From NCBI RefSeq assembly GCF_009659535.1, contig NZ_VJZZ01000011.1:186001-250000 (forward strand): DNA of 64,000 bases, read 5' to 3'. Below the pieces are notes generated by a model. The model made no database searches and was not told the DNA's origin. It was given only the letters and a program-made list of their open reading frames with translations. Origin of the DNA: Aggregicoccus sp. 17bor-14. Its GTDB lineage: Bacteria; Myxococcota; Myxococcia; Myxococcales; Myxococcaceae. The position numbers were made by a program, and so were the translations under genes. Within the stretch, counting starts at the first letter, position 1; each line of letters starts with the position of its first letter. This document shows, piece after piece, positions 8,117 through 26,747 of the stretch.

Positions 8117-9085
8117 CTAGCGGGCGGGCAGGAAGCGCGGCCCCGAGAGGTAGCCGGAGAGGCGTGCCGAGCGGAAGCCGGGCTCCTGACGGTCCATGGG
8201 CAGGATGGTCAGCGCCGAGCCCAGGATCCCGAGGCGCTTGGTGAACTCCGGCTCGGCCTTCACCTTGAGGTCCATGGCCAGCTCGCTGAAGGGCAGATTC
8301 TTCGCGAGCTTCACGGTGCCGCCGCCGCGCAGCTCCAGGTCGTCGCTCTTCGCACTCAGGGCCTCCACGGTGCCCACGCCCTTGTCCACGTTGATGCGCA
8401 CGTCCACATTGCCCAGCGCGATGCGCGGCAGGTCCACCGGGGTGGGCGTGCCGTAGAGCGGCACGGTGGCGGTGCCGCCCTTGATGGTGAGGCCGCGCCC
8501 GTCCAGCGTGATGGCGCCCTGCGCGGCCGAGTAGTCCGGCGCCTTGGCGGGGGTGTTGTCCACCGGCACGTCCAGGCGCACGTCGCCCGAGAGCTTGCCC
8601 TCGAGGTCCAGGCCGCTGAAGCCCTTGAGGTTGCCCTGCGTGGTGTCCAGGTCCTCCAGGTGCAGGCGCACGGCGCGCGTGCCCAGGCCGCCCACGGCCC
8701 CCGTCACCGTGCCGCCCAGCGCGTCCGCGTGCAGGCTGACGCCCAGGGGCAGCAGCGAGGGACGGAAGGCCACGCTCTTGATCGCGAGCGCCTCGCCCAG
8801 GTCCCCGACCACCACGCCGCCCGTGACGAGCGCGTCGAGGGTCTCGGGGGGCAGCGGCTGCGCGGGCTTGCTCAGCCGCACGTCCGTGGCCGTGATGCCG
8901 TGCAGGCCCGGGCGCAGGTTGCCGATGCGCACCGCGTAGCCTGCCGCCGCCGCCTCCGTGACGATGCGCGCGCGCAGCGTGTCGTACGGGAAGGTGAGGG
9001 CGAGGCAGAGGAGGAGCGCGATGAAGGCGAAGGCGCCGTACGCGAGCGCCAGCTGCCAGCGGGGGGTCTTCGTTTCGGTGGGCAT
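8117..9085 (-). CDS. gspN: type II secretion system protein GspN
   Basis: 322 residues with one N-terminal membrane anchor (about 11-29, YGAFAFIALLLCLALTF) and a large beta-rich periplasmic part with LxxLDLEGKL- and LDGRGLTIKGG-like repeats, resembling the AsmA-like fold of the GspN family found in Leptospira and delta-proteobacterial T2SS operons. The role is not well defined; it is taken as an accessory inner-membrane/periplasmic component. The start codon overlaps the gspM stop (TGATG), showing translational coupling. It is the last recognisable T2SS gene in the operon. Confidence 0.88.
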   Translation of the reverse strand: MPTETKTPRWQLALAYGAFAFIALLLCLALTFPYDTLRARIVTEAAAAGYAVRIGNLRPGLHGITATDVRLSKPAQPLPPETLDALVTGGVVVGDLGEALAIKSVAFRPSLLPLGVSLHADALGGTVTGAVGGLGTRAVRLHLEDLDTTQGNLKGFSGLDLEGKLSGDVRLDVPVDNTPAKAPDYSAAQGAITLDGRGLTIKGGTATVPLYGTPTPVDLPRIALGNVDVRINVDKGVGTVEALSAKSDDLELRGGGTVKLAKNLPFSELAMDLKVKAEPEFTKRLGILGSALTILPMDRQEPGFRSARLSGYLSGPRFLPAR

Positions 9086-9654
9086 CAGGGCTTCATCTTG
9101 TAGGTGGCGACGGTGGTGGACGCGGCGAGCGTGTCGCTGCCGGGGCGGGGATCCAGGCGCAGGTTCTTCACCTTCACCATGCCGGGGCCGCTCTCCACCG
9201 TCTTGAGGAAGTCGGTGAACTCGCGCAGGTCCACGTCCGTGAAGGTGAGCTCCACGGAGCTCTCCACGATGCGCCCGTCACCCAGGCTCACGTCCGGCTT
9301 GGGATTGAACGACGGCACCTCGAGCCCCGCCGCCGTGGCCTTCTCCTCGATGTAGCTGATGAGGCGCACGTCCGACTGGGTGAGCTGCTGCTCCACCTGC
9401 TGGCGCGCCTGCTCCGCCTCGCGGTAGCTGGTCGCGAGCGTCTGCACCTCCTGCAGCTTCGCCACCTTCTGCTTCGTGCGGGTGCGGTATCCGTCAGCGC
9501 TCGAGGAGAAGGAGAAGAGGATGATGAAGAGCAGGAAGACGGTGAAGGCCGCGGCGAGCCCGCCCACCATCCGCTGCTCGCGCGCGTTGAGCCGCTCGAA
9601 CCACGCGCGTGCGTTGGCCAGCAGCGCCTTGAGCTGTTCCTTGAGGTTGTCCAT
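9085..9654 (-). CDS. gspM: type II secretion system protein GspM
   Basis: 189 residues: a cytoplasmic amphipathic N-terminus (ERLNAREQRMVGG), one membrane helix at about 30-48, a coiled coil (KVAKLQEVQTLATSYREAEQ) and a periplasmic ferredoxin-like domain. This is the GspM layout; GspM pairs with GspL in the inner-membrane assembly platform. It lies 6 bases after gspL and overlaps gspN by one base. Confidence 0.9.
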   Translation of the reverse strand: MDNLKEQLKALLANARAWFERLNAREQRMVGGLAAAFTVFLLFIILFSFSSSADGYRTRTKQKVAKLQEVQTLATSYREAEQARQQVEQQLTQSDVRLISYIEEKATAAGLEVPSFNPKPDVSLGDGRIVESSVELTFTDVDLREFTDFLKTVESGPGMVKVKNLRLDPRPGSDTLAASTTVATYKMKP

Positions 9655-9660: not shown

Positions 9661-11247
9661 CTAACCCTCCGCCCGCTGCTCGGCGGGGCACTGCACCTGG
9701 ATGCTGAGCCGGAAGGTCACCTTGTTGCCCTCCCGCGTGCGCTCCACCTTGCCCTCCTGCACCTCCTTCACGCAGCGGTGCGAGCGAAGGGCGGCGGTGA
9801 GCGAGTCGATCTGCTTGGAGCTGTCCGTGGTGCCCATCAGCTGCACGCGGTCCGGGTCCACCAGGATGCGGTCGAAGGTCACCGGCACGTCCGCGGGCAC
9901 CTTGGCAGTGAGCTCCGCGAGCAGCTCCACCGCGCTCGTCTTCGGCAGCGCCGCCGCGGGGCTCTCCTGGCCGCGCAGCAGGTTGAGCGCGCGGTCGTAG
10001 TTCGTCTCGCAGGTGCCCAGGATGCGCTTCGTGGTCTCGCACAGCATCGCGTCCACCTGGTGCTCGCGCCGCGCGAGGACCTGGTTGCGCACGATGCCGC
10101 CCACGATGAGCAGCACCAGCAGCGTGGCGGCGAAGGCGCCCACCAGCCCCAGCCGGTCGCGCACGTAGTCGTAGCTGCCCTTGAAGCTGAACTCGCCGCG
10201 GCGCAGGTTGAAGCGCGGCGCCTTGGCGCCCGAGGCCGCGCCGCGAAGCGCGAGCGCGTAGGCCTGGGTGGCGGAGGGCTGGATCTCCGCCGGGGCCACG
10301 GCCGCCACGTCCGCGGGCAGGGGCAGGAGGCTCGTGGGCAGGTTCAGGTCCCGCCCCAGCTGCTCGGCGAGCCCCGGCATGCGCGCGCTGCCGCCGCACA
10401 GGAACACCGCGCCCACGCGCTTGCGGCTGCGCGCCGTGTAGCTCTTGAGCGTGGGACGCAGCTCGCGCAGGAGCGGCTGCAGGCCGCGCGCGAAGGCCGC
10501 CGCGGCGCGCTCCGCGTCCGGGCCCACCGCGGCGCTGGCCATGGCCCCGTGCGCCTCCTTCCAGTGGTGCGCCTCGGGCAGCGGGGTGTTGAACTCCACG
10601 GCCAGCGCGCGGCTGAGCTCGCGGCCGCCGCCGGCGAAGGTGCGCGCGAACTCCACGCCCACCCCCGGCTTGCCGATGGCCACCGTGGTGCGATCCTGAC
10701 CGATGTCCACCAGCGCTACCGCCTCCGCCTCCGCCGCGCCGTCGAAGAGGGCGGGGTGCTGCAGGAGCAGGTTCTGGTAGGCGACGCCCGGGTGCGTGAC
10801 GATGCGCGGGTCCAGCTTCAGGTCCGCGAGCGTCTGCAGCAGCGGGGCGAGCTCGTCCTTGCGCACCACGCCCACCAGCAGGTCGCTCGCCTTCTCCTTC
10901 TGCGTGGTGACCTGGTAGTCGAACACGGCCTCGGAGAGATCGTAGGGGAGCTGTCCCTCCACTTCGAAGGGCACCACCGAGTCCAGGCGCTTGGGGTCGT
11001 TGAAGGGCAGCGTGAGCTGGTGCGTGGCGAGCGAGGCGCCCGGCAGCGCGATGATCACCTGGTCCGCGCGCAGCTCCGGATGCTGCGTGAGGAGCTGCTG
11101 CAGCGCCGCGCGCAGCGTCTCCACCGGCTCGCCTTCCGCGCGGCGCACCTCGGCGTAGGCCTTGGGCGTGGGGCTACGCCCGGAGCTGTCCAGGACGAGC
11201 CCCTTCACCGAGTAGCTGCCGAGATCGAGGCCAAGGATGCGGGCCAT
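9661..11247 (-). CDS. gspL: type II secretion system protein GspL (PilM-like)
   Basis: 528 residues. The cytoplasmic actin-like domain begins ARILGLDLGSYSVKG (phosphate-1 loop) and contains VALVDIGQDRTTV (phosphate-2), as in PilM/GspL. One membrane helix is at about 368-390 (AATLLVLLIVGGIV), followed by a periplasmic ferredoxin-like domain, the PilN-equivalent half. GspL recruits the ATPase GspE to the inner membrane and pairs with GspM. The domain order amounts to a PilM-PilN fusion, normal for GspL. Gaps to gspK and gspM are 6 bases each. Confidence 0.92.
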   Translation of the reverse strand: MARILGLDLGSYSVKGLVLDSSGRSPTPKAYAEVRRAEGEPVETLRAALQQLLTQHPELRADQVIIALPGASLATHQLTLPFNDPKRLDSVVPFEVEGQLPYDLSEAVFDYQVTTQKEKASDLLVGVVRKDELAPLLQTLADLKLDPRIVTHPGVAYQNLLLQHPALFDGAAEAEAVALVDIGQDRTTVAIGKPGVGVEFARTFAGGGRELSRALAVEFNTPLPEAHHWKEAHGAMASAAVGPDAERAAAAFARGLQPLLRELRPTLKSYTARSRKRVGAVFLCGGSARMPGLAEQLGRDLNLPTSLLPLPADVAAVAPAEIQPSATQAYALALRGAASGAKAPRFNLRRGEFSFKGSYDYVRDRLGLVGAFAATLLVLLIVGGIVRNQVLARREHQVDAMLCETTKRILGTCETNYDRALNLLRGQESPAAALPKTSAVELLAELTAKVPADVPVTFDRILVDPDRVQLMGTTDSSKQIDSLTAALRSHRCVKEVQEGKVERTREGNKVTFRLSIQVQCPAEQRAEG

Positions 11248-11253: not shown

Positions 11254-12540
11254 CTATTCCTCTCTCCAGTAAAGGAGCTTGCCGAGCGTGTCGTCGAGCC
11301 GCACGACCGCGTGCACGGTCTTCTGCACGGAGCCTGCCTCACCCACGGAGGTGATGCTGAAGGTTTCGCTCTTGTCGGTCAGCGGGCCGCTCGTACTCTG
11401 GGCGGTGGTGAGACGCGGGTCCATTGTTACGCCGTAGCGCGTGACGGCCCCACCCACGACGCTGACGAAGGTCTTCACGTCCATGCCCAGCACGCTGATC
11501 TGCCGCGCGAGCTTCACGGCGTTGATTGCCTCCTGCAGCGCCACCGGCTTCTGCAGGAGCACCGGCCGGGTCTGCGGGGTGACGGCGGAGAGGATGGCGG
11601 AGATGAGCACCGTCGTGTCGTCCGAGTTGATGTTCAGGCCGTGTGACTGGTCCGGATACACGGTGAAGCGGTCGCCGAAGGCGGCCATCAGCTTGTCGTT
11701 CACGCCGTGCACCCGGTACAGCTCGTCCAGGCTGTCGAAGAGCGCGTTCTTGGGCCGGTAGCGCGGCTCGTAGCTGTCGTAGCCGCTCGTCTCGCTGGCG
11801 AAGCCCGTGGCGAAGGGAGGACCATTCGGATCCGGGTTGAGCGCCGACTGCGTCTCGTCCTCGTCCATCCAGTCCTTCAGCGCGATGACCACGTCCTGGG
11901 CCGTCACCTTCGTCCCGTTCGCATCCTCGTGCTCCCAGAGGAAGTCGTAGTGCTTGTCCGTGAGCATGGTGAGGAGCTGGTCCGTCGTAGAGCGCGCGTC
12001 CGGCCCCGTCGCCAGGGCGAGGCGACGCAGGTTCAGCTTCGTCTCCTCGTCCTGGATGGTGGAGAGGAAGCAGCCCTCGAAGCCTCCGAAGGACTTGCGC
12101 TTCTGCGTCGTCGCCTCCTCGGGAAGCTCCTCGTCGGAGCTGGAGGCCACGGTGCGCGGCGCGTTCTCCTCGAGCGCGCCCTTCTCGTTGCTCTGCACCA
12201 TGCCCTGCAGCATCTGGCAGTCCACGCGCGCCATCTTCCAGATCTGCAGGTTGAGCTTGGGCATGCCGGGGATGGCCGGCATCTGCATCCCGTTGAGCTG
12301 CTTCTGGAAGCGCAGCAGCAGGCGCGACATGCCGATGCCCGACTGGGCGAGGTAGTGCGCGCGCAGCTCGTCGCGCTGGTTCGTCGCGAGCTGCAGGTCC
12401 ACGCGCGTGTTGTAGGCGAAGTCGGTGGCCACCACCGTGAGCAGGGTGATGGCGACCACGGCGATGATCAGCGCCACGCCGCGCTCACCCGGGCGGCCGG
12501 CGCGCCGGCGGCGGCGCGGGGCAGGGGAGGGGCGGCTCAT
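11254..12540 (-). CDS. gspK: minor pseudopilin GspK
   Basis: 428 residues. The basic leader ends GERGVALIIAVVAITLLTVVATDF, the GspK-type prepilin cleavage site and hydrophobic stretch; the large globular domain that caps the pseudopilus follows, including the inserted alpha-domain. As usual for GspK, the start of the mature protein lacks the Glu5 of major pseudopilins (VALII after the Gly). The ATG at 12540 overlaps the gspJ stop by four bases. Confidence 0.92.
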   Translation of the reverse strand: MSRPSPAPRRRRRAGRPGERGVALIIAVVAITLLTVVATDFAYNTRVDLQLATNQRDELRAHYLAQSGIGMSRLLLRFQKQLNGMQMPAIPGMPKLNLQIWKMARVDCQMLQGMVQSNEKGALEENAPRTVASSSDEELPEEATTQKRKSFGGFEGCFLSTIQDEETKLNLRRLALATGPDARSTTDQLLTMLTDKHYDFLWEHEDANGTKVTAQDVVIALKDWMDEDETQSALNPDPNGPPFATGFASETSGYDSYEPRYRPKNALFDSLDELYRVHGVNDKLMAAFGDRFTVYPDQSHGLNINSDDTTVLISAILSAVTPQTRPVLLQKPVALQEAINAVKLARQISVLGMDVKTFVSVVGGAVTRYGVTMDPRLTTAQSTSGPLTDKSETFSITSVGEAGSVQKTVHAVVRLDDTLGKLLYWREE

Positions 12541-13226
12541 CGGTACGCCTCGAGGGTGGTGTTGAGCATCAGCCGGGTCTGCGTCGTGTAGCGCGTCTCC
12601 TTGCCGTTCTCGTCGTTGGCCACCAGCGTGATGCGCACGCGCGTGGGCAGCAGGTTCTGGCGCTCGGGGCGGCGGGTGTCCCACTCGTCGTCCCACTCCT
12701 TGCGCTGGCTGTCCCAGTAGGCGAACTCGATGCTCTTCACGCCCTCGAAGAGCACCTCCTCGCTGCCGCCGCGGTCCATGCGGTCCTCCACGTTGGCGTT
12801 CGCCCGGCGCATCAGGTCCTGCCGGCCGCGCGCGTCGCGCTCGGAGCTGGTCTTCACCGAGTACTCGAGCACCGCCTGGTCGCTCTCCTTCGCGTCCGTG
12901 TAGAGGCGCTGGTTGGAGAAGGAGGTGAAGAGCAGGTGATCGCGCTCGCCGATGAAGTTGGTGGGGCGGTCGTTCTGGTCGCGGTAGCGCTTGTGGTCGT
13001 AGCGGTCGCTCACGTACGCGTTGCCGATCTCGCGCGCCATGCGGTTCATGGCTCCCCGCAGCATCCGGTAGTGCTCCGCGTCGGCCTCCACGGACTCCTT
13101 CGCCGTGAAGCCCGTCTGGAAGGCCATGGCGATGATGCCGCCCATCATCGCGGTGATGGCCACCGCGATCATGACCTCCATCAGCGTGAAGCCGCGCGCG
13201 CGGCGCCGCAGGGCCGGGGCGCTCAT
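12537..13226 (-). CDS. gspJ: minor pseudopilin GspJ
   Basis: 229 residues with a type III signal, RRRARG followed by FTLMEVMIAVAITAMMGG, for prepilin-peptidase cleavage and N-methylation. GspJ is part of the I-J-K tip complex of the pseudopilus. The start at 13226 is the ATG directly before the basic leader; it overlaps the gspI stop by four bases. An in-frame upstream extension has no leader character and is rejected. Confidence 0.92.
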   Translation of the reverse strand: MSAPALRRRARGFTLMEVMIAVAITAMMGGIIAMAFQTGFTAKESVEADAEHYRMLRGAMNRMAREIGNAYVSDRYDHKRYRDQNDRPTNFIGERDHLLFTSFSNQRLYTDAKESDQAVLEYSVKTSSERDARGRQDLMRRANANVEDRMDRGGSEEVLFEGVKSIEFAYWDSQRKEWDDEWDTRRPERQNLLPTRVRITLVANDENGKETRYTTQTRLMLNTTLEAYR

Positions 13227-14158
13227 TGGAACACGCTCCCGCTCTTGTTGAAGCCCGGCGGCTGAGTGCCCGGGGTGGGGCGCCAGTTCCCGTTGTTCTG
13301 GCCAGCGCCCGCGGGAGGCGAGGCGTACATGATCTGCCCGGTGTACTTGTTGATCCACTGCCCACCGCGGCCCGTGATCATCGCCGCGGGCACCATCGTG
13401 CCATCCGCGGCGTACATCGGCCCGGGGGGCTGCTGGCCGTCGGCAGGCGGAGCGCCATCACCGCCACCACTGCCAGGCGTGTTCGTCACAACCCCGGACT
13501 CCGCCGCCTGGCCGCCGTTGCGGTCCGAGCCCGTGCCCAGCGAGACCACGTGCGTCACCAGGTCGAAGCTCTCCACCTGCGTCCCGTCCTTCCAGGACAC
13601 GGTGAGGTGCACCTCGCGCACGCTCTTGGTGATCTGGTCGATCATCTGGGTGAACTGCCCCTGGATGAGCGGGCCCATGGCGCCCGCGATGCCTGCCGAT
13701 GCGTCCTGGGTCGCACCCGGAGGCAGTGCGGGGTTGGCCGCCCCGTCCTTGCCGCCCTTGCCCCCGAACGAGTCCAGCATCTCCTGCAGCCCGCCCGTGC
13801 CCATCGGCACGTTGAAGATGGCGCTCACCATCTGCTCCGGGGACACGCCCTGCGTCTTGGGCGCGAGGATGCGGGCGCGCCACTTGAACTGGCTCCAGCC
13901 CTCTTCGGAGAAGTCGCCGGACTCCTCGTCGTCGTCGTTGGAGAAGCCCTTGTCGTAGAGCTGCTGCTCCAGGTCCGTCATCTTCGAGCGCGCGAGCAGC
14001 GTCGCCACGGTGAGCTTCTTCGTGTACGCGTGGTTGGCCACCGCGCCCGCGTTCAGGTCGAAGATGGCCATCAGCGCGAGCGCCAGGATGGCGAGCGCGA
14101 CGACGGTCTCGAGCAGCGTGAAGCCCCGGGGGCTCGGAGGTACGCGGCGCTGGCTCAT
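13223..14158 (-). CDS. gspI: minor pseudopilin GspI with long C-terminal tail
   Basis: 311 residues. The N-terminus (PSPRG then FTLLETVVALAILALALMAI) is a classic type III signal with Glu5. GspI proteins are usually about 120-130 residues; this one has an insertion of about 60 residues rich in Gly, Ala and Pro (DSFGGKGGKDGAANPALPPG) and a C-terminal tail of about 100 residues dominated by Gly, Pro, Asn and Gln. The tail's only structured-looking stretch is GGQWINKYTGQIMYASP. It is coupled by 4-base overlaps on both sides. Confidence 0.88.
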   Translation of the reverse strand: MSQRRVPPSPRGFTLLETVVALAILALALMAIFDLNAGAVANHAYTKKLTVATLLARSKMTDLEQQLYDKGFSNDDDEESGDFSEEGWSQFKWRARILAPKTQGVSPEQMVSAIFNVPMGTGGLQEMLDSFGGKGGKDGAANPALPPGATQDASAGIAGAMGPLIQGQFTQMIDQITKSVREVHLTVSWKDGTQVESFDLVTHVVSLGTGSDRNGGQAAESGVVTNTPGSGGGDGAPPADGQQPPGPMYAADGTMVPAAMITGRGGQWINKYTGQIMYASPPAGAGQNNGNWRPTPGTQPPGFNKSGSVFQ

Positions 14159-14868
14159 GAGCTCGGGACCTCCAGCTCCTCGCCCACCACGTCCACCTTG
14201 CCGGTGAGCGGCTGGATGCGGAGCGTCCACACGTTGCTGCCCTGGCGCACGTACACCTGGGCGCGCTCGGTGAAGCCCTGCGGGAAGAAGTAGAGGTACG
14301 CGAGCCCCTTGTCCGCGGGCTCGCGCTGGTGGCGCGTCCACACGCTCACCTTCACGTCCGAGGGCAGCTTGCGCGGTGAGATCTCGGGCGCGGTGAACTC
14401 GGAGAACTGGGCGGCCTTCTCCACGCGGCCCTTCTCCGCGCTCAGCTCCTCGTCGAGGTTGGGGCCGCTCTCGCTGCGGAAGTCCTTCATGCGGCTCGCG
14501 CCGCCTCCGGACTTGTCGTTGCGCGCGAGCTCGTCCGCGCTGCGGTTGCTCTCGCGCAGCTCCACGTCGCGGTCGCGCGAGGTGGTCACGTTGCCGGCCG
14601 CGCACTCCGCGCGGTAGCTCGTGCTGCCGTCCGACTTGGGGTCTGCAATCTCGAACACCAGCCGGCAGGTCTTCCCGCTCAGCGCCGCCGTGTCGTAGAG
14701 CGAGCGGATGGTGCCCGCGAGCTCCGAGGTCGCCGCCTTCGCCTTGGTGCCGGTGATGGAGCCGATGCTCACCACCACCGCGCCGAAGAGCACGGCGGCG
14801 ATGGCCAACGCCACCATGATCTCGATGAGCGTGAGCCCGCGCGGGGCCCGGGAGCGCGCAGGCCTCAT
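14155..14868 (-). CDS. gspH: minor pseudopilin GspH
   Basis: 237 residues with the type III signal SRAPRG/LTLIEIMVALAIAAVLFG followed by a beta-rich globular domain. It is somewhat longer than typical GspH (about 160-190) because of a charged middle segment (ESNRSADELARNDKSGGG). GspH sits between the tip and the GspG shaft. ATGA overlaps couple it to both neighbours. The assignment as H rather than another minor pseudopilin rests partly on gene order. Confidence 0.85.
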   Translation of the reverse strand: MRPARSRAPRGLTLIEIMVALAIAAVLFGAVVVSIGSITGTKAKAATSELAGTIRSLYDTAALSGKTCRLVFEIADPKSDGSTSYRAECAAGNVTTSRDRDVELRESNRSADELARNDKSGGGASRMKDFRSESGPNLDEELSAEKGRVEKAAQFSEFTAPEISPRKLPSDVKVSVWTRHQREPADKGLAYLYFFPQGFTERAQVYVRQGSNVWTLRIQPLTGKVDVVGEELEVPSS

Positions 14869-15296
14869 GGGCGCGAGACCTCGCTCGCACCGCCCGCGTC
14901 CAGGTCCGCGGCGTCCCCGCTGCCGCCGGGCATGCCGTCCTCGCCGAGCGAGAACACGTGCCCCTCCTTGCCGCTCTTCACGTAGTGGTAGGGCCGGCCC
15001 CAGGGATCCAGGGGGATCTCCTTGAGCACGCCGGACTGCACGATGGTGGTGAACCCCTCCGCATCGGAGGGGTAGCGCCCCATCATCCGGTAGAAGTCCT
15101 TGAAGAGGCCGTCCAGCTTGCGGATCTCCCCGCGCGCCTGCCGCTGCTTCGGGCTGAGCGTGCTGTCGTTGGTCAGGTACACCACCGCGAAGGCGAGCAC
15201 CGTCGCGCTGAGCATCACCAGCCCGAGCACGAGCTGCGCCGCGCGCGGGGCGCGCGGACGGCTCTGCGTCGGGCTCTGGGCGGGCAGGGAGGTCAC
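14865..15296 (-). CDS. GspG-like protein lacking a prepilin signal
   Basis: 143 residues. The C-terminal two thirds clearly matches the GspG globular domain: YPSDAEGFTTI, IPLDPWGRPYHY and FSLGEDGMPGGSGDAADL correspond to the calcium-loop region of the true GspG encoded next door. The N-terminus, however, is a Ser/Pro/Arg-rich stretch followed by an ordinary membrane helix (LVLGLVMLSATVLAFAVVYL), with no Gly-Phe/Thr-Leu-x-Glu cleavage motif. It should therefore stay anchored in the inner membrane and not be processed into the pseudopilus shaft. It starts 15 bases after gspG and overlaps gspH by four bases. Confidence 0.85.
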   Translation of the reverse strand: MTSLPAQSPTQSRPRAPRAAQLVLGLVMLSATVLAFAVVYLTNDSTLSPKQRQARGEIRKLDGLFKDFYRMMGRYPSDAEGFTTIVQSGVLKEIPLDPWGRPYHYVKSGKEGHVFSLGEDGMPGGSGDAADLDAGGASEVSRP

Positions 15297-15311: not shown

Positions 15312-15737
15312 CTACTTGTTGCTGGCGGAGGCGCCGACGTCCTTGGACGAGATGTCCGCGCTGCTGCCCTCACCGCCCTGAGTGCCGTCCGAGCCGTAGG
15401 AGATGATCACCGGCTTGCCACCCTCGTTGAGGTAGACGAAGTCGTTGCCCCAGGGGTCCTTGGGCAGGGTCTCGAGGTTGTTCGTATCGACGAGCGCCTT
15501 GAGGCCCGTGGCGGTGTCCGGGTAGTTGCCCTTCTTGGCGTAGTAGAGCTTCAGCGCTCCCTGGATGGTGTGGATGTCGAGCTTCGCGCGCTCCACGCGG
15601 GACTCGTCCAGCTTCGGGATCACGGCCACACCCACGGCGGCGGCGATGAGACCGAGGATGGTGATCACCACCATGATCTCGATCAGGGTCATGCCGCGGC
15701 GGCGGCGGCGCTGCTGCTTCGTCAGGGTCTGGGTCAT
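15312..15737 (-). CDS. gspG: major pseudopilin GspG
   Basis: 141 residues. The leader QQRRRRRG precedes MTLIEIMVVITILGLIAA, the type III signal with Glu5, and the C-terminal domain has the GspG signature (DPWGNDFVYL, GSDGTQGGEGSSADI) with the acidic calcium-binding loop. GspG polymerises into the pseudopilus that pushes substrates through the secretin. The ATG at 15737 gives a normal-length leader; the GTG far upstream would run through the neighbouring small ORF and is rejected. Confidence 0.95.
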   Translation of the reverse strand: MTQTLTKQQRRRRRGMTLIEIMVVITILGLIAAAVGVAVIPKLDESRVERAKLDIHTIQGALKLYYAKKGNYPDTATGLKALVDTNNLETLPKDPWGNDFVYLNEGGKPVIISYGSDGTQGGEGSSADISSKDVGASASNK

Positions 15738-15817
15738 GGCGTCTTCTCTCCTCTGTCTTGGTCGGTGACTTTTCGGCAGGCGCGGAGCGCCGGGCTGGGT
15801 CTTTCTGTCAAAGCGGG

Positions 15818-15973
15818 CTACGGGGCGCGGGCCGAGGCGGCGGCGGGCGGGGCCGGAGCAGCGCCGGAGGCGGGCGCGTAGAGCACCACGCCCACCGTGA
15901 CCAGCGTCGCCGCCAGGGCGACCAGGGCCGCGAGGGCCACGCGCTGGATCCACTGGTCGACTGCGTCATTCAT
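15818..15973 (-). CDS. 51-residue single-pass membrane protein in the gsp operon
   Basis: A short frame, ATG at 15973 and TAG at 15818, lies between gspF (44 bases) and gspG (80 bases). The 51 residues comprise a polar N-terminus (MNDAVDQWIQRV), one membrane helix (ALAALVALAATLVTVGVVLY) and an Ala/Pro tail. CTCG(A)GGACG upstream gives a moderate ribosome-binding site. Its place within an otherwise tightly packed operon, the sensible membrane topology and the lack of another gene in this 280-base gap support it. I do not recognise a family; it could be a small T2SS assembly factor. Confidence 0.6.
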   Translation of the reverse strand: MNDAVDQWIQRVALAALVALAATLVTVGVVLYAPASGAAPAPPAAASARAP

Positions 15974-16017: not shown

Positions 16018-17280
16018 CTAATGGATGGCCGAGTTCACCTGCAGAATCGGCATCAGGATCGAGAAGGCTACGAATGCAATAATCCCGCCCATCACCACGA
16101 TGAGGATGGGCTCCATCAGCGAGGTGAGGGCGCCCACCTTCACGTTCACCTGGTTCTCGTAGCTGTCGGCCACCGAGATGAGCATCTCCTCGAGCTGGCC
16201 GCTTTTCTCGCCGATCGCGACCATGTGGTAGACGAGCGGCGGGAACTCGCCCGAGCGCTTGAGGGGCGTGGAGATGCTCTCGCCCTCGCGGATGGCGTCG
16301 CGGGCCTTCTCAACAACCTCCGCGAGCACCGAATTCGTCATCACCGCCTTCACGATGTCCATGGCTGCCAGGAGCGGGACGCCGCTCTTGAGCAGGGTGG
16401 AGAGCGTGCGCGCGAAGCGCGAGATGGCCAGCAGGCGGACGAGGCTGCCGAAGATGGGCGCGTGCAGCGCGAAGCGGTCCCACTTGGGGCGCCCCGCGGG
16501 GCTGCGGAAGTAGGCGACGAGCGCCATGGTGCCGCCGATGAGGCCCGGAAAGATGATCCACCAGTAGCCCTGCAGCGTGTTGCTGAACCAGATGAGCGCG
16601 CGCGTGGTGAAGGGCAGGGTGGCCTTCATGGTGGTGAAGATCTTGGTGACCTTCGGCACCACCACCGTCATCAGCAGCACGAGGATGCCGCCGCCCACCA
16701 CCATCATGATGGCGGGGTAGAGCAGCGTGCCCATGACCTTCTGGCGCAGCTTCGCCTGGCTCTCGGTGAAGTCCGCGAGCCGCACCAGCACGGCGTCCAG
16801 CGCGCCCGAGCTCTCGCCCGCGCGGATCATGTTCACGTAGAGCGAGCCGAACACCTTCTGGTGCACCGCGAGCGCGTCCCCGAGGCTCGAGCCCTCGTTC
16901 ACCCGGCTCTTGACCTCGGAGAGGATGCGCTTGAGCCGCTCCTTCTCCACCTGGTCCACGAGCGCCGTGAGCGCCTCCACCAGCGTGACGCCCGCGCCCA
17001 GCAGGGTCGCGAGCTGGCGCGTCGTGATGGCGATGTCGTCCGTGGTGACGCGGCCGCGCGCGAGCTTGCCGAGGTTCACGTCGCGCGAGGCGGCGGCCGC
17101 GCTGGCGCCCGCCGCGCCCTTGCGCGCTGCGGTGCGGGCGTCCGCCATGCCCAGCACCTCGGTGAGGTACACGCCGTTCTTGCGCAGGTTCGCGCGCAGG
17201 CTCTTGGCGGAGTCGGCCTCGAGCAGGCCGCTCACCGTCTTGCCCGCCTCGCTCAGCCCCTTGTACTCGAAGACCGGCAT
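16018..17280 (-). CDS. gspF: type II secretion inner-membrane protein GspF
   Basis: 420 residues starting MPVFEYKGLSEAGKTVSG, with two T2SSF domains (about 85-205 and 285-405) and three membrane helices near 185-205, 235-255 and 390-410. GspF is the polytopic core of the assembly platform on which pseudopilins are inserted. The signature IGEKSGQLEEML is visible late in the protein and its repeat IRAGESSGALDAVL in the first domain. It follows gspE after 24 bases. Confidence 0.96.
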   Translation of the reverse strand: MPVFEYKGLSEAGKTVSGLLEADSAKSLRANLRKNGVYLTEVLGMADARTAARKGAAGASAAAASRDVNLGKLARGRVTTDDIAITTRQLATLLGAGVTLVEALTALVDQVEKERLKRILSEVKSRVNEGSSLGDALAVHQKVFGSLYVNMIRAGESSGALDAVLVRLADFTESQAKLRQKVMGTLLYPAIMMVVGGGILVLLMTVVVPKVTKIFTTMKATLPFTTRALIWFSNTLQGYWWIIFPGLIGGTMALVAYFRSPAGRPKWDRFALHAPIFGSLVRLLAISRFARTLSTLLKSGVPLLAAMDIVKAVMTNSVLAEVVEKARDAIREGESISTPLKRSGEFPPLVYHMVAIGEKSGQLEEMLISVADSYENQVNVKVGALTSLMEPILIVVMGGIIAFVAFSILMPILQVNSAIH

Positions 17281-17304: not shown

Positions 17305-19107
17305 CTAGATGTCCTCCTGCGTGATGCTGAGGACCTCGGCGATGGTGGTCTCACCGAGCGCGATCTTGCGCGCGCCGTCGTCGATGAGCGTCAGCATGCC
17401 CTTGCTCACCGCCATCTTCTTGATGGTGGAGGCGTCCACGTTCTTGAGCACGAGCTGGCGGATGTCGTCGTCCACGAGCAGGAACTCGTAGATGCCGGTG
17501 CGGCCGCGGTAGCCGTTGCGGTTGCAGTTGGCGCAGCCGGTGGCCTTGTAGATCTGCTCCACGCCGTAGCGCTCGCGCATCAGCTTCTTGCTGAGGCCGA
17601 TCTCCTTCAGCTCCTCGTCCGTGGGCGTGTACTTCACGCGGCAGTCCGGGCACACGCGGCGCACGAGGCGCTGCGCGAGCACCGCCGTGAGCGAGGAGGC
17701 CACGAGGAAGGGCTCCACGCCCATGTCCACGAGGCGGGTCACCGCGCCCGGCGAGTCGTTGGTGTGGACCGTGCTGAACACCAGGTGGCCCGTGAGCGAC
17801 GCCTGGATGGCGATCTCCGCCGTCTCCTTGTCGCGGATCTCGCCGACCATGATCACGTCCGGATCCTGGCGGAGGAAGGAGCGCAGCCCCTGGGCGAAGG
17901 TCAGCCCGATCTTCGGGTTGATCGCCATCTGGCCGATGCCCTTGAGCTGGTACTCGACCGGGTCCTCGACGGTGAGGATGTTCAGGTCCACCGTGTTGAT
18001 CTTGCTGAGCGCGCCGTACAGCGTGGTCGTCTTGCCGCTACCGGTGGGGCCGGTGACCAGGATGATGCCGTGCGAGCGCTTGATCACGCTCTCCATGCTC
18101 GCGAGCGTGGCCGCGCTCATGCCGACCTCTGCGAGGTCCAGCAGCGTCGCGCTCTTGTCGAGCAGACGCATCACGATGCGCTCGCCGAAGGCGGTGGGGA
18201 TGGTGGAGAGGCGGATGTCGATGTCGCGGCCGGCGAGCTTGATGCGGATGCGGCCGTCCTGCGGCAGGCGCTTCTCGGCGATGTTCAGCTGCCCCATCAC
18301 CTTCACGCGCGAGACGATGCTGTTCTGGTAGCGCTTGGGCGGCTTGATGATCTCCTGCAGCACGCCGTCCACGCGGAAGCGCACCAGCAGCTCGCGCTCC
18401 GCGGGCTCGATGTGGATGTCGCTCGCGCGCTCCTTCGCTGCGCGGAACAAGAGCGAGTTGACGAGGCGGATGATCGGCGCCTCGTCGTCGGTGTCCAGCA
18501 GGTCCTGCGGCTCCTCGAGCTCGTGGGCGAGCGTGTCGAGGTCCGCGGACTCCATCTCGCCGACCAGCTGCTCGGCCTCGTTCACCGCGCGGTCGTAGAC
18601 GCTGTTGATCGCATCCACGATGGTGGAGCCCAGCGCGATGCGCGGGCTGATGCTCTGGCCCAGCAGCGTGCGCGCGTGGTCCAGCACGGGCGTGTCCAGG
18701 GGGTCCGCGACCGCGAGCGCCACCACCCCGTCCTCCACGGAGAGGGGGAGGATGCGCGCCTGCTTGGCGAAGTTGATGGGCACCCGCTTCACCAGGTCCG
18801 GGTCCACCTCCTCGGCGAAGATGCGCGCGAGGTAGGGCAGGTCCAGCTGCAGGCCCAGGGCCTTGGCCACGTCCTCCTCGCCCACCGCCTTGAGGCCCAC
18901 CAGCACCTCGCCCAGCCGGCCGCCCTTCTCGGCCTGCGCGGAGAGCGCCTCCTCGAGCCGCTCGGCGCTCAGGCCGGTGGTGACCTGGAGGATCTCCCCC
19001 AGCATGCGGCCGCACAGGGCGGACGGCTGGAAGAGGTTGGGCGCGGGCGCGGGGGGGGTGGGCGCGGCGTCAGGAACGGAGAGGGGGAGCACGTCGGCAG
19101 GGGTCAT
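17305..19107 (-). CDS. gspE: type II secretion ATPase GspE
   Basis: 600-residue cytoplasmic ATPase that powers pseudopilus assembly. It has an N-terminal T2SSE_N (MshEN-like) domain, Walker A GPTGSGKTTT near 352-361, the Asp box, Walker B (DVIMVGEIRDKETAEIA) and a tetracysteine zinc module (CPDC near 485 and CANC near 529). The ATG at 19107 overlaps the gspD stop by four bases. An unstructured N-terminal 25 residues rich in Pro is typical of delta-proteobacterial versions. Confidence 0.97.
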   Translation of the reverse strand: MTPADVLPLSVPDAAPTPPAPAPNLFQPSALCGRMLGEILQVTTGLSAERLEEALSAQAEKGGRLGEVLVGLKAVGEEDVAKALGLQLDLPYLARIFAEEVDPDLVKRVPINFAKQARILPLSVEDGVVALAVADPLDTPVLDHARTLLGQSISPRIALGSTIVDAINSVYDRAVNEAEQLVGEMESADLDTLAHELEEPQDLLDTDDEAPIIRLVNSLLFRAAKERASDIHIEPAERELLVRFRVDGVLQEIIKPPKRYQNSIVSRVKVMGQLNIAEKRLPQDGRIRIKLAGRDIDIRLSTIPTAFGERIVMRLLDKSATLLDLAEVGMSAATLASMESVIKRSHGIILVTGPTGSGKTTTLYGALSKINTVDLNILTVEDPVEYQLKGIGQMAINPKIGLTFAQGLRSFLRQDPDVIMVGEIRDKETAEIAIQASLTGHLVFSTVHTNDSPGAVTRLVDMGVEPFLVASSLTAVLAQRLVRRVCPDCRVKYTPTDEELKEIGLSKKLMRERYGVEQIYKATGCANCNRNGYRGRTGIYEFLLVDDDIRQLVLKNVDASTIKKMAVSKGMLTLIDDGARKIALGETTIAEVLSITQEDI

Positions 19108-21719
19108 GAGCGGGTGGCGCTGGTGCTATCGGGCTGGACGCGGATCCGCTCGGGAGGCGGCTCCTGCACCGGCGCTGAAGGAGAGGAACCGCTCTCGGGA
19201 GACGCGTCTTCCCGCTCGCTCGGGGGCTCCGCGGGCGTGGGGGAGGGAGCGGGCGGGGAGGCGGGGGCCGGGTTGCTCGGCGTCACCTCGCCCGGGCTGG
19301 CGGGCTCGGCCGGGTTGATGATCCGCTGGCCCGGGGCGCCGGGGCCGCCGTTCTCCGCCTTCGTCTCCTCCTCGAGGAGCGAGCGGTTCATGCGCCCCAG
19401 CGGGCCGGGCTTGCGCTGGAAGTCCACCGCGACCTCGTAGCCCGGCACCTGCCCGTAGAACTGCTCCACGAACTGCTGCCGCTCCTTCATCTTGCGCTCG
19501 AAGATGCGCCGGAAGTCGCTGCTGTCCTTGATGATGTAGGGCGTGAGGAAGAGCAGCAGGTTGGTCTTCGTCTTCTGCCGCGTGGTCTGGCGGAAGAGGT
19601 GCCCGATGATCGGCACGTCCCCGAGGATGGGCACCTTGGACACGCTCTCGATGGTGCGGTCCTGCATGATGCCGCCCAGCACCACGGTCTCCTGGTCCTT
19701 GGCGACCACCGTGGTCTTCGCGCTGCGCTTGGAGGTGGTGGGGCCGAGGGTCGGGTTGTTGGAGGCGATCTCCTCGGTCTGCTCCGCGATGACGAGGCGC
19801 ACGAACTCGCTCTCGTTGATCTGCGGCTTGATGGTGAGCTTGAGCTCCACGTTCTGGCGGGTGATGGGCGCGTAGAGCGAGCCCAGGCCACCGAGGCTGC
19901 CCAGGATGGAGGCGTTGAGGCCGTTGGCGCCGTTGACGCCCGTGTTGCCCAGCGCGCTGCCCACGCTCGAGGGGCTGAAGCCCGCCTGGAAGGGCACGTT
20001 CTGGCCCACCGTGATCTCCGCCTCCTCGTTGTCGCTGGTGAGCAGGTGCGGCGTGGACAGCACGTTCACGTCCGAGCTGGTCTGCAGCGCGTGCAGGATG
20101 ACGCCGAAGGAGGGGATGCCCAGCGCCTTGAGCTCGGGGATGACCGGGCCCTGCAGGCCCGCGAGGAAGCCGCCGAAGCTCGCCAGGTTCGCGAGGTTGG
20201 TGGAGGGCGGCAGGCCGCCCTGATTGTAGTTGGTGCCCACCACGCCGATGGACTGGTTGTCGCCGCTGCCCAGCGCGTAGCCGGAGTGCAGGTTGATGCC
20301 GAAGTCCGACTTGCGGTCGAGGTTGACCTCCATGATGACCGCCTCCACGAACACCTGGCGGCGCGGCTGGTCCAGCTCCTCGATGACGCGCACGATGTTG
20401 CGGTAGTCGCTCTGGCTCGCGACGATGACGAGGCTGTTGGTGCCCTTGTCCGCGGAGATCTTCACCTCACCGCTGAACAGCTCCGCGGCGCCCGAGCTGC
20501 CGCCGGGGCGCGGGGCGACGCCGGGGATGTTCGCGGGGGCGCCCGTGCGCGGGCGGTTGCTGGTGCCCTGCGCGAGGCTCTGAAGCGTGCTCGCGATGTC
20601 CTCCGAGTTCGCGTTGGCGAGCCGGTACACGTTGATGCGGCCCTCGCCGGAGATGGGCACGTCGATCTCGCGCACCAGCTGCCCGATGCGCTCGAAGGCG
20701 GCGGGGCTCGCCACGATGATCAGCTTGTTGGTGCGCTCGTCCGGGATGATCTGCGAGAGCGTGGCGGGGCCGCCCGAGCCCGCGCTGCCGCTGTTCACGC
20801 CCTCGCCGCCCGCCTGCGCCGCAGGCGGAGCGAAGGTGCCCGCGCGCTGGCCAGGGCGGTTGCTCTTGGCCTCGAAGATCTTCTGGATGGTACCCGCCAC
20901 GTCCTGCGCGCTCGCGTAGCGCACCTGCAGCACGCGCACCTCGTCGCTCGAGGCGCGGGTGTCCAGCTGGTCCACGATCTTCTCGAGCCGGTGGATGTTG
21001 CTGCCCACGTCGTTCACGATGATCGTGTCCGGCGGGTAGGGGATGGTGTCGCCGTCCTTGCTCACCAGCTGCTGCAGCACGCCGCGCAGGGGCTCCACGT
21101 CCGCGTAGCGGATCTTGAAGAGCCGGGTGATCATCTGCTCGTTGAGCGTGTACTCCTGGTCCGGGTCCACGATCGTGGGGATGGTGTTCTGCTTCGCGCT
21201 GCGCTTGTCGACGATCTTGAGGAAGCGCCCGGAGGGGTAGACCGCGAGGCCGTTCGCATCCAGCGCGGCGAGGAAGGCGGAGTAGAACTCGTCCGGGCCC
21301 ACCTCGAGCCGCCCGTTCTCCGGGCCGATGATGGAGATCTTCCCGCGCACGTTCTCCGGGAGGATGAAGCTGCGGCAGGTGGCATCCGAGACCGTCTGGA
21401 TGAGCTTCTCGATGTCCACCTTGTCGAAGTAGATGCCGTAGCGCGCGTTGCGCCGGGCCTGCTCACAGGTGGGCTTGCCGCGCGTGCCCTCGCCCTGGGC
21501 CTCCTGCGCGGGCGTGATCTGCCGCTCGCTGGCGCCCGCACCGGCACCGCGCGCCGGGGAGGCCGGGGCTGCAGGCTGTGCGGGGGCGGGGGAGGGCGCG
21601 GGAGTGGGGCGCACGGGCTGCGCGCCCGCGGGCGGCAGCGTGCCGGGGCGGCGCTGGGCGAGCGCCGGGAGAGCGAGCGCGAGGCACAGCGGGAGCGTCC
21701 ACGTCGAAAGCGTCTTCAT
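19104..21719 (-). CDS. gspD: type II secretion outer-membrane secretin GspD
   Basis: 871 residues. A signal peptide (LPLCLALALPALAQ) and a Pro/Ala-rich segment precede the N0 domain, then N1-N3 domains (about 180-470; for example LPLVIV-type LIIVASPAAFERIGQLV repeats) and the C-terminal secretin barrel (VFVEAVIMEVNLDRKSDFG through DRTIESVSKVPILGDVPIIGHLF). A Pro/Ser/Glu-rich tail of about 65 residues follows the S-domain region. It forms the outer-membrane gate of the T2SS. It starts 31 bases after gspC and is translationally coupled to gspE. Confidence 0.97.
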   Translation of the reverse strand: MKTLSTWTLPLCLALALPALAQRRPGTLPPAGAQPVRPTPAPSPAPAQPAAPASPARGAGAGASERQITPAQEAQGEGTRGKPTCEQARRNARYGIYFDKVDIEKLIQTVSDATCRSFILPENVRGKISIIGPENGRLEVGPDEFYSAFLAALDANGLAVYPSGRFLKIVDKRSAKQNTIPTIVDPDQEYTLNEQMITRLFKIRYADVEPLRGVLQQLVSKDGDTIPYPPDTIIVNDVGSNIHRLEKIVDQLDTRASSDEVRVLQVRYASAQDVAGTIQKIFEAKSNRPGQRAGTFAPPAAQAGGEGVNSGSAGSGGPATLSQIIPDERTNKLIIVASPAAFERIGQLVREIDVPISGEGRINVYRLANANSEDIASTLQSLAQGTSNRPRTGAPANIPGVAPRPGGSSGAAELFSGEVKISADKGTNSLVIVASQSDYRNIVRVIEELDQPRRQVFVEAVIMEVNLDRKSDFGINLHSGYALGSGDNQSIGVVGTNYNQGGLPPSTNLANLASFGGFLAGLQGPVIPELKALGIPSFGVILHALQTSSDVNVLSTPHLLTSDNEEAEITVGQNVPFQAGFSPSSVGSALGNTGVNGANGLNASILGSLGGLGSLYAPITRQNVELKLTIKPQINESEFVRLVIAEQTEEIASNNPTLGPTTSKRSAKTTVVAKDQETVVLGGIMQDRTIESVSKVPILGDVPIIGHLFRQTTRQKTKTNLLLFLTPYIIKDSSDFRRIFERKMKERQQFVEQFYGQVPGYEVAVDFQRKPGPLGRMNRSLLEEETKAENGGPGAPGQRIINPAEPASPGEVTPSNPAPASPPAPSPTPAEPPSEREDASPESGSSPSAPVQEPPPERIRVQPDSTSATRS

Positions 21720-21750
21720 GGTTCAGGGCCTGGGCGGGGTGCTGTGCGGC

Positions 21751-22665
21751 TTAGCGGATGTTGTACGTCTTCTTGACCGGCGCGCCGTTGCGCTCGAGCT
21801 CGATCTCGATGCGGCTCGACTCCTTCAGCTTGGAGTAGACCTCGAGCGCCTTCTCGGGACTGTTCATCTCGAACCCGTTGATACGGCGGATGACATCACC
21901 GTTCTGCACGCCGATCTTCGAGTAAAGCGAGTCCGGACGGATGCTGAACAGCTTGAAGCCCTGCGCCTGGCCATCCTTGAAGGCCGGCACGATGCGCGCC
22001 TGCATCGCGAGGTTGTTGAGGTTGTTGAGCGCGTTGTCGATCTCGGGGCGCGGGACCTCGTAGTCGTTCTCGCTGGTGGCGCGGATGCCGGAGCCCAGGG
22101 TGCCCGTGGGGGCCGCGGTGTTCACCGCGACCGGCGCCACCACCGGCGTATTCGTGGGCAGCGAGGAGCCGTCACCCGGCTGCCCGTCGATGTACTCGCG
22201 GCGGTTGTTGTTGAGCACGATCACGCGCTCGCGCTCGATCTCCCTGACCTCCGCGCCCTGCACGGTGTCGCCGACCATGTACGTCTGCGAGCGCTGCGTG
22301 CCCATGTCCTGGATGGAGGCGAAGGACCACTGCGGCTGGGAGGCCACCAGCGTGCCCAGCAGCTTCACGCGCAGGCCGCTCTTCACCGGCGCGGCGTTCG
22401 GATCGTAGGCGGCCTGGGTGGGCGCCTGAACCGCCACCTCCGGCTGGGAGATCTTCAGGCCGGTGAGCTTGCTGAGCCGCTCCAGGTCCAGCGTGGCGCG
22501 CGCAGGGGTGGCCTTCGCGCGCTGGGCGCGGGCCACTGCCCCGGTGGGCAGCGGCGCGATCGCGGACTCGACGAACACGTTCACCGTGCGCGCCACGATG
22601 AAGGCGGCGAGCAGGATGAACAGCGCCGTCACGGTCCAGAAGTACTTGCGGAAGAAGAGTTCCAT
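21751..22665 (-). CDS. gspC: type II secretion protein GspC
   Basis: 304 residues: one N-terminal membrane helix (about 8-28, FWTVTALFILLAAFIVART), the homology region (VKLLGTLVASQPQWSFASIQD) that contacts secretin N0, and a C-terminal PDZ domain (IRPDSLYSKIGVQNGDVIRRINGF). GspC links the inner-membrane platform to GspD. The ATG at 22665 is chosen: a GTG 48 bases upstream would start inside the sigma-54 promoter. It is the first gene of the gsp operon. Confidence 0.94.
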   Translation of the reverse strand: MELFFRKYFWTVTALFILLAAFIVARTVNVFVESAIAPLPTGAVARAQRAKATPARATLDLERLSKLTGLKISQPEVAVQAPTQAAYDPNAAPVKSGLRVKLLGTLVASQPQWSFASIQDMGTQRSQTYMVGDTVQGAEVREIERERVIVLNNNRREYIDGQPGDGSSLPTNTPVVAPVAVNTAAPTGTLGSGIRATSENDYEVPRPEIDNALNNLNNLAMQARIVPAFKDGQAQGFKLFSIRPDSLYSKIGVQNGDVIRRINGFEMNSPEKALEVYSKLKESSRIEIELERNGAPVKKTYNIR

Positions 22666-22696
22666 CCAGGTCCCAGGAGATACTGCGTACCGACAC

Positions 22697-22712
22697 AGCA
22701 AGCGAGGTGCCA
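22697..22712 (-). promoter_or_regulatory. sigma-54 promoter of the gsp operon
   Basis: Read on the minus strand the sequence is TGGCACCTCGCTTGCT, matching the sigma-54 consensus TGGCAC-N5-TTGCA/T with the invariant GG and GC exactly 10 bases apart. Transcription should begin near 22686, about 20 bases before the gspC start codon. The neighbouring upstream gene encodes a sigma-54-dependent response regulator, which makes enhancer-dependent control of the whole operon plausible. Confidence 0.88.
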
Positions 22713-22754
22713 CCGGCAGGGGGGCGCAGGCCGGGGGAAGGACGACTAAGCCCC

Positions 22755-22767
22755 CGGAATTATTCCG
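22755..22767. promoter_or_regulatory. inverted repeat, possible activator site
   Basis: CGGAATTATTCCG is a perfect 6-bp inverted repeat around one base, about 70-80 bases upstream of the predicted sigma-54 start point for gspC. This is the usual distance for an enhancer-binding-protein site, and it is an AT-containing palindrome in a very GC-rich gap. Assignment to the adjacent regulator is inference. Confidence 0.45.
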
Positions 22768-22811
22768 TCCCTCGGGGGGCGGGCAGGGGGGCCGGCGGTG
22801 CCCGTGGCCGC

Positions 22812-22828
22812 CTGAGACATTTTGTCAG
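22812..22828. promoter_or_regulatory. second inverted repeat upstream of gspC
   Basis: CTGAGACATTTTGTCAG has matching ends CTGA/TCAG and a mostly symmetric centre (two mismatched pairs). It lies about 125-140 bases upstream of the predicted gspC transcription start. It could be another activator site or the 3' hairpin of the response-regulator gene; a T-rich core is the only other support. Confidence 0.35.
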
Positions 22829-22884
22829 CGGCCGGTGCGCGCCGCGTGACGCGGTGTCAGCGCGCGGGTGCGTCCGGGAAGGGC

Positions 22885-24318
<1,434 letters not shown>

Positions 24319-24372
24319 GGGGCGGTGTGCCGGTGCAAGGGTCGGGCCCGATCCTCGCACGGAAGGAGCGCC

Positions 24373-25353
24373 CTAGTCTTCGTCGCCCTCGCCGCCACCG
24401 CCGCCGCCCATGCGCCCGATGTCCTCGCGCTTCACCTTGTCCACGTTGAAGCGCTGCACGCTGCCCAGCATGCGCGCGACCGCGTCCTCGAAGTCCGGGG
24501 GCTCGCCCTTGTGGAAGCGCAGGAAGTTCGCGCGCGCGACCACGAAGTTCTTGAGGTAGGGGCTCTGCAGGCCGCGCTCCTTCAGCCGGCCCACCACGGC
24601 GTTCACCGCGTCGTCCAGCTCCAGCAGTTGGTCGGCGCGCGCCTCGCGCAGCGGGAGGGCCTCGGAGAGGGGCTCGTCGAAGAAGGCCTCCAGGCGCTTG
24701 ACGAAGGGGTGGTAGGCGCCGGCGCTGAAGCGCGGCCGCTTCTGGTACGCCGCGCCCAGGGTGATGAAGGCCGGCTCCTCGAAGAGGTGCGCGTAGTCCG
24801 CCTCGTTGCCCTCGCGCACCGCCGCGAGGTCGCGGTACATGCGGATGACCTCGAGCGAGCGCTCCTTCAGGTTGTGCGCCTTCTCCGTGTTGAGCGCGAG
24901 GATCTGGTACGCCACGTCCACGTCCGGCAGCACCAGCGCCACCACCGTGCGCGCGCCCAGCAGCTTGGAAGCGTGCAGGCGGTGGTTGCCGTTGGGCGTC
25001 CAGTACTTGCCGAGCTCTGCGTTTCGCACCGCGATGACCGGGTCGAGGAAGCGGTCGAGGCGCTCCATCGCCGTGGCGAGCCGCTTCACGTGCGGCTCGG
25101 AGAGGTCGCGCTGGTAGGGGGTGGGCTCCACCTTGTCCACCGGCAGCGCCGCGAGCAGCACGGGGTGGCCGCCGAGGGGGTCCCGGTACTGGCCGATGAC
25201 CTCTCCGCCGTCCTCGCGGATGAGGGCGGCGAGGGCTTCACCCTGGGGCATCGAGGAGGCCACGTCGCGCGGGGGGAGCCCGCGCGAGCTGGGTTGCGCC
25301 TTCTTGCGGCGGGGCTTCTTTGCCTTCGGCTTGGTCTTCGCCTTCGTGGCCAT
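24373..25353 (-). CDS. ParB-N (nuclease-fold) domain protein
   Basis: 326 residues. The N-terminal 25 residues are extremely Lys/Arg-rich (KAKTKPKAKKPRRKKAQ), histone-tail-like. A ParB/Srx-type domain follows: LPVDKVEPTPYQRDLSE, then FLDPVIAVRNA and NGNHRLHASKLLG, the equivalent of the ParB NG-H-R nucleotide-binding box. The C-terminal half is helical with an acidic/Gly-rich end. No parA or parS-like cluster is nearby, so it is probably not the chromosome-segregation ParB; a CTPase or DNA-binding role is inference. It sits between the tldE homologue and the response regulator. Confidence 0.8.
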   Translation of the reverse strand: MATKAKTKPKAKKPRRKKAQPSSRGLPPRDVASSMPQGEALAALIREDGGEVIGQYRDPLGGHPVLLAALPVDKVEPTPYQRDLSEPHVKRLATAMERLDRFLDPVIAVRNAELGKYWTPNGNHRLHASKLLGARTVVALVLPDVDVAYQILALNTEKAHNLKERSLEVIRMYRDLAAVREGNEADYAHLFEEPAFITLGAAYQKRPRFSAGAYHPFVKRLEAFFDEPLSEALPLREARADQLLELDDAVNAVVGRLKERGLQSPYLKNFVVARANFLRFHKGEPPDFEDAVARMLGSVQRFNVDKVKREDIGRMGGGGGGEGDED

Positions 25354-26745: not shown

Positions 26746-26747
26746 GG

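Follow-up and report, generated by a model that had tools for sequence, protein, structure and literature searches.

The locus raises the question of what switches on a type II secretion system (T2SS) operon in Aggregicoccus sp. 17bor-14, and whether the response regulator encoded beside it is the switch. Within the stretch of DNA that was analyzed (64 kb, referred to as the window), gspC, D, E, F and G, the minor pseudopilin genes and gspK, L and M form a single, complete-looking co-directional run (table 1), in agreement with the initial annotation. In this run no intrinsic terminator was found on the coding strand, and sigma-70-like matches were limited to a single weak one at about chance level. 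The pilin-type N-terminus of GspG begins at about residue 82 of the listed open reading frame and the true start of this gene is therefore probably located downstream.

Table 1. Coordinates of the T2SS operon, its predicted control elements and the neighboring regulator gene (window numbering).
Feature	Position	Strand	Remarks
NtrC-family response regulator, predicted gsp activator	22885..24318	minus	REC, AAA+ sigma-54 activation and Fis HTH domains
Putative distal activator site A, TGACACCGCGTCA	22847..22859	minus	conserved in relatives; 32 bp from site B
Putative proximal activator site B, TGACAAAATGTCT	22815..22827	minus	conserved; consensus TGMCA-N3-TGKCA
Third conserved element, CGGAATAATTCCGGGGGCTTAGTCGTCC (GGAATRATTTCRAGNNCTTGGCYGTA in relatives)	22740..22767	minus	alignment; between sites and promoter
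Sigma-54 -24/-12 promoter element, TGGCACCTCGCTTGCT	22697..22712	minus	exact sequence match; conserved before gspC phylum-wide
Predicted transcription start	22686	minus	inferred, 12 nt after GC of the -12 element
gspC	21751..22665	minus	
gspD, secretin	19104..21719	minus	
gspE, ATPase	17305..19107	minus	
gspF	16018..17280	minus	
gspG, major pseudopilin (listed ORF)	15312..15953	minus	
Pseudopilin-like (T2SSG domain)	14865..15296	minus	
Minor pseudopilin (N_methyl)	14155..14868	minus	
Minor pseudopilin (N_methyl)	13223..14251	minus	start codon not fixed
gspK	11254..13365	minus	
gspL / PilM-PilN-like	9661..11247	minus	
gspM / PilO-like	9085..9654	minus	
gspN-position gene, last of co-directional run	8117..9085	minus	no Pfam match

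The response-regulator gene and gspC are separated by a gap of 219 nt which, judged by its sequence, is a sigma-54 control region. It contains the letters 5'-TGGCAC-CTCGC-TTGCT-3' (22712 to 22697), with GG at -24 and GC at -12 spaced ten bases apart in the arrangement TGGCAC-N5-TTGCW, 31 nt upstream of the gspC ATG (22665); the perfect sigma-54 match claimed for this position proved exact in both sequence and coordinates. A scan of both strands of the window with TGGC-N7-TTGCW returned this element as the single match, and TGGCAC-N5-TTGCW matched 13 times in the 6.9-Mb genome as opposed to once for the backward-read pattern. No intrinsic terminator and no sigma-70-type promoter were found between the regulator gene and gspC, and an Rfam scan of positions 21500-25000 gave no match to a riboswitch or structured RNA.

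Relatives were gathered by a whole-genome search and from a named collection (Myxococcus xanthus, Pyxidicoccus, Archangium, Corallococcus, Citreicoccus, Anaeromyxobacter, and others). Absence of the GG-N10-GC element before gspC in these relatives had been named as an outcome that would speak against the promoter; instead, the box was found in the Myxococcaceae, in Anaeromyxobacter and in most other Myxococcota classes sampled. Nearly all Myxococcales gspC loci are preceded by it, as are those of many members of the other classes, where gspC is just 33-44% identical. Overall, TGGC[AG]N6TTGCW occurs within 90 nt of gspC in 84% of 177 upstream regions (some genomes enter the count more than once) and in 0% when reversed or placed on the opposite strand, a same-place conservation beyond chance. 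The box is retained even in genomes whose regulator gene is displaced by 2-11 kb or located on another contig.

Several loci deviate from the common gspC arrangement. In three genomes (L028, L029, and L030 in G035, G004, and G025) a second, diverged gspC-like gene directly precedes gspC, with the regulator gene several kb away or on another contig, and at L365 (G031:C283) site and box directly precede gspD, with no gspC found ahead of it. Relatives within Myxococcus and Corallococcus carry a second gspC locus (G022:C1:2711838-2711954, G030:C14:76849-76965, G126, and G149; loci L319, L346, L348, and L341) with TGACAnnnTGTCA sites and a sigma-54 box of its own, which may place both T2SS copies under one activator.

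The initial annotation had placed two inverted repeats at enhancer distance from the promoter. The repeat at 22828-22812 was borne out, since it harbors the conserved activator-type site TGACAAAATGTC (22827-22816), centered about 123 nt upstream of the -12 GC. The palindrome at 22767-22755 (CGGAATAATTCCG) was rejected as an enhancer because it is not conserved as a palindrome in relatives; an alignment of the relatives assigns it to a separate conserved AT-rich element. A second conserved activator-type site that had been overlooked, TGACACCGCGTCA, is the partner of site B. The motif TGACA-N3-TGTCA is present with at most one mismatch in 88% of the 177 gspC upstream regions, compared with 0% for the reversed and 0.25% for shuffled controls. 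Among 144 distinct promoters from across the phylum, the proximal site is centered at a median of 112 nt upstream of the -12 element, and neighboring sites are spaced by 31-33 bp in 77 out of 117 cases and by 40-42 bp in 34 out of 117. These spacings correspond to three or four helical turns, as expected for dimers bound to one face of the DNA. The paired sites are located 40-170 nt upstream of the sigma-54 box, a position typical of enhancers and unusual for a repressor.

The AT-rich sequence belongs to the third conserved element (22740-22767), which is possibly an IHF or bend site: an IHF-like sequence with at most one mismatch occurs in 30 out of 153 regions of the relatives versus 1.2 expected from shuffles, a support that comes from the relatives, the copy in the window being a candidate. 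Within family f1 the element is conserved; genera with short control regions have lost its GGAAT part and kept its AT-rich core, shifted to a position beside the -24 box, a behavior more in keeping with a bend site than with a promoter.

The predicted product of the gene upstream of gspC has the composition of the NtrC-type response regulator that was named initially, with a receiver domain, an AAA+ sigma-54 activation domain with Walker A motif and intact GAFTGA loop, and a Fis-type helix-turn-helix (HTH_8). The receiver residues D54, T82, and K104 are present here and kept in 58 out of 58 scored orthologues, the GAFTGA loop is retained in nearly all orthologues and the recognition helix RTIYRK is nearly invariant. 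The protein scores below the curated cut-offs of the NCBIfam equivalogs NtrC, AtoC, ZraR, GlrR, NtrX, and PEP-CTERM response regulator (AtoC, the best, 470.6 against 714; ZraR 442 against 760; NtrC 431.3 against 558.6; PEP-CTERM 412.9 against 502.6) and thus represents an NtrC-type regulator without a curated name among its best matches. A phylogenetic analysis unites the orthologues from across the Myxococcota in a single clade (59 rows, support 100/99) that excludes the paralogues and shows a branching order that largely tracks genome relationships; the nearest NtrC-type paralogues form a separate clade and are at most 52% identical. The regulator gene adjoins gspC in most Myxococcia and is not beside gspC outside this class. 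In M. xanthus gspD is MXAN_2514 (PMC3222651), and gene order suggests that the regulator is probably MXAN_2516. A conserved histidine kinase neighbor was not found, a motif test having identified a kinase-like open reading frame near the regulator gene in just 2 out of 28 loci. Gene neighborhoods thus mark the protein as a predicted orphan response regulator, and the two-component signal proposed initially is predicted from its receiver residues. Ahead of the regulator gene, the window encodes a ParB/Noc-like protein (24373-25353, weak match; same placement in L042), preceded by a PmbA/TldD-type metalloprotease that carries a long N-terminal fusion (25393-28986); neither gene has an evident tie to secretion.

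Co-conservation connects the regulator with the palindromic sites. The site is present in 47 out of 48 genomes scored with an orthologue and in 8 out of 14 scored without one (Fisher p = 3e-4, for genomes that are related and not independent). In the later tree G065 falls inside the orthologue clade, as does G111 by a long branch; both had been scored as without orthologue. Because of the relatedness of the genomes and the re-placement of G065, and possibly of G111, the test is treated as supporting evidence. The scored f26 genomes and G100 contain neither orthologue nor site. Two genomes (G031 and G033) retain site-plus-box promoters with no orthologue found in their fragmented assemblies, several f18 and f29 genomes (fragmented as well) likewise retain the site without a recognized orthologue, and another activator could act in all of these. 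A clean joint loss of regulator and gspC from G031 and G033 was considered as evidence and dropped: G031 has gspD, both genomes keep the promoters, and, as the two genes are often neighbors, a single assembly gap can remove both. Overall, the co-conservation of regulator and site is strong and imperfect, and in combination with adjacency it indicates that the neighboring regulator very probably works the gsp control region.

A search for the strict combination of site and box in 60 relatives recovered gspC in many genomes, the second gspC copy, and a gene pair elsewhere; after the consensus had been relaxed to TGMCA-N3-TGKCA, matches were obtained in 22 out of 24 genomes and none with the backward control. 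In the Aggregicoccus genome (6.9 Mb) site and box occur together at exactly two places, gspC and the MXAN_2561 orthologue, the latter beyond the window at a distance of 54 kb from gspC on the same contig (contig 11, 262928). TGACA-N3-TGTC occurs at two further places in this genome, and in the combined scans neither has a sigma-54 box after it. The MXAN_2561 gene is preceded here by the site TGACAATTTGGCA and the box TGGCCCTGGCCTTGCT, and an activator site was identified upstream of MXAN_2561 in 26 out of 27 genomes. Both targets were matched by position in nine family members (own genome included) and in three genomes of the Anaeromyxobacter group, whose MXAN_2561-like gene scores under the curated cut-off of the family. 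The restriction of site plus box to two operons points to a small dedicated sigma-54 control circuit.

According to NCBIfam the gene pair encodes a MYXO-CTERM-anchored protein (MXAN_2561 family) followed by an outer-membrane beta-barrel protein (MXAN_2562 family). The orthologue studied here scores above the cut-off of NF045522, starts with a signal-like N-terminus and ends with a GC motif, a hydrophobic helix and an Arg-rich tail (GGTETGGCGVAGG...VASRRRAS). MYXO-CTERM proteins of M. xanthus reach the surface via the T2SS (PMC11980579), and by analogy the MXAN_2561-family protein is a probable T2SS client. No evidence was found for the predation or developmental enzymes initially suggested as cargo; control confined to gsp and one MYXO-CTERM/beta-barrel operon makes export of cell-surface proteins the better guess. 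In two loci (L357, 447-2156 on the minus strand, and L364) the two genes are fused into one open frame, in which an internal MYXO-CTERM stretch (...GGHGCTTGG...LLLRRRRK...) precedes another signal-like segment and the beta-barrel.

Other perfect sigma-54 boxes were noted elsewhere in the genome. One of them (TGGCACATCGATTGCT; G000:C4:102060-102075, L004) is located shortly upstream of an apparent lpxC (protein MSVSSFNQRTLNTVVSTQGVGLHSG...), and COG0774 (LpxC) is listed as enriched among sigma-54 targets in Myxococcia in PMC12316311; an essential gene such as lpxC under sigma-54 could bear on the essentiality of rpoN in M. xanthus. A further perfect box, TGGCACCCTCCTTGCT, is shared by two neighboring paralogous genes for MacB/FtsX-like permeases (G000:C6:365645-365660 and 369048-369063; L006 and L007). 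Two further perfect boxes (L008, G000:C6:375171, and L005, G000:C4:434788) have TGACA-N4-TGTC(A) palindromes nearby that are one base wider than the gsp site and perhaps represent sites of a different activator.

The conserved box, the paired palindromes at enhancer distance, the single activator clade and the intact phospho-switch residues together give strong comparative support to the initial proposal that the T2SS operon is driven by a sigma-54 promoter, with its likely activator encoded next to it. Extended to the second target, this leads to the reading, held with a probability of roughly 80%, that one response regulator switches the gsp and the MXAN_2561/2562 operons via sigma-54. That sigma-54 merely tops up T2SS expression, the main share being due to read-through or to a housekeeping or ECF promoter (possibly the third element), is unlikely. 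The genes are co-directional and the missing terminator between regulator gene and gspC means that read-through from upstream, independent of sigma-54, could contribute a share; furthermore, the GGAAT...CGTA of the third element, conserved in f1, is loosely ECF-like. Against a promoter function of this element stands its fate in other genera, which lose GGAAT and keep the AT-rich core next to the -24 box, and the regulator-gspC gap yielded no sigma-70-type promoter.

Alternatively, the promoter might depend on sigma-54 with a different enhancer-binding protein on the palindromes, the adjacency in the Myxococcia being a remnant of shared ancestry. These genomes encode many NtrC-type paralogues, the sites persist in some genomes without a recognized orthologue and the regulator gene is elsewhere outside the Myxococcia; however, the orthologue clade spans the phylum and the site accompanies it in all but one of the scored genomes, recognition helix and site are both nearly invariant and the closest paralogues form a clade of their own, which renders another activator quite improbable. 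Less credit still is due to the idea that an unrelated repressor or global regulator, overlapping the sigma-54 control, uses the palindromes as operators: although their binding protein is predicted from sequence, the sites form phased pairs at enhancer position before the box and the combination is nearly restricted to two operons. A chance or relic motif, to which the single perfect match of the backward pattern in the genome might lend some color, is in practice ruled out by conservation of the position throughout the phylum, with zero control matches.

Control by the neighboring regulator would operate as follows. Sigma-54 RNA polymerase would sit closed at 22712-22697 until a histidine kinase phosphorylates D54 of the regulator (24318-22885), whose dimers would bind 22859-22847 and 22827-22815 on the same DNA face and assemble the ATPase ring. 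Looping of the DNA between sites and promoter, perhaps aided by a bend at 22767-22740, would allow the GAFTGA loop to open the promoter for transcription of the gsp operon. Through its TGACAATTTGGCA site and TGGCCCTGGCCTTGCT box the MXAN_2561/MXAN_2562 operon would be turned on by the same regulator, and the circuit would thus set T2SS capacity jointly with one probable client.

Such a circuit offers a small, testable handle on when myxobacteria build the machine that places surface proteins, for example the kin-recognition receptor TraA, and gives a concrete functional context to MXAN_2561 and MXAN_2562, whose locus tags were not found in the openly searchable literature. Deletion of rpoN is reported to be lethal in M. 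xanthus (PMC12316311, PMC4641369), and surface-protein export that may hang on sigma-54 is one candidate reason among others. A further suggestion, doubtful and offered as speculation, is that the single orphan regulator, vertically inherited across the Myxococcota, matches T2SS capacity to demand, with MXAN_2561/2562 as an export gauge and a blocked or overloaded T2SS feeding back via the kinase, in the way envelope-stress systems watch their own clients.

The connection between sigma-54 and the T2SS is not new, given that T2SS COGs including COG3031 and COG2804 are enriched among predicted sigma-54 targets, chiefly in Myxococcia and less in Polyangia (PMC12316311, 2025). The available text of that survey describes no activator, enhancer motif (the term "upstream activating" is absent) or MXAN_2561 target. 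In the openly searchable literature no description was found of this activator, its paired operator, a regulon of these two operons or a reach across the phylum. As far as that literature goes, the second target, like the activator and its operator, appears to be new.

Sigma-54 regulons driven by NtrC-type activators are in themselves a familiar kind of system. A secretion apparatus is placed under a sigma-54 activator, as here, in the T3SS controlled by HrpR/HrpS, the Desulfovibrio T3SS with DVUA0100 (PMC4641369), and the H2-T6SS with RpoN/Sfa2 (PMC8855297), with effectors sometimes in the same regulon. Those systems drive a T3SS or T6SS, whereas the apparatus here is a T2SS; a reach across a whole phylum like the present one was not noted for them, and PMC4641369 lists DVUA0100 as a single-component regulator, in contrast to the present response regulator. 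MYXO-CTERM sorting by the T2SS and myxosortase (PMC11980579) defines the client class to which the MXAN_2561 family belongs; the available portion of that work concerns protein sorting and describes no shared transcriptional regulation. Within M. xanthus, comparable systems are PilSR-PilA and NmpRSTU (PMC6211767), NtrC-like sigma-54 regulators of a type IV filament system whose kinases are known, whereas the regulator described here is a predicted orphan with the T2SS and a MYXO-CTERM operon as its putative targets.
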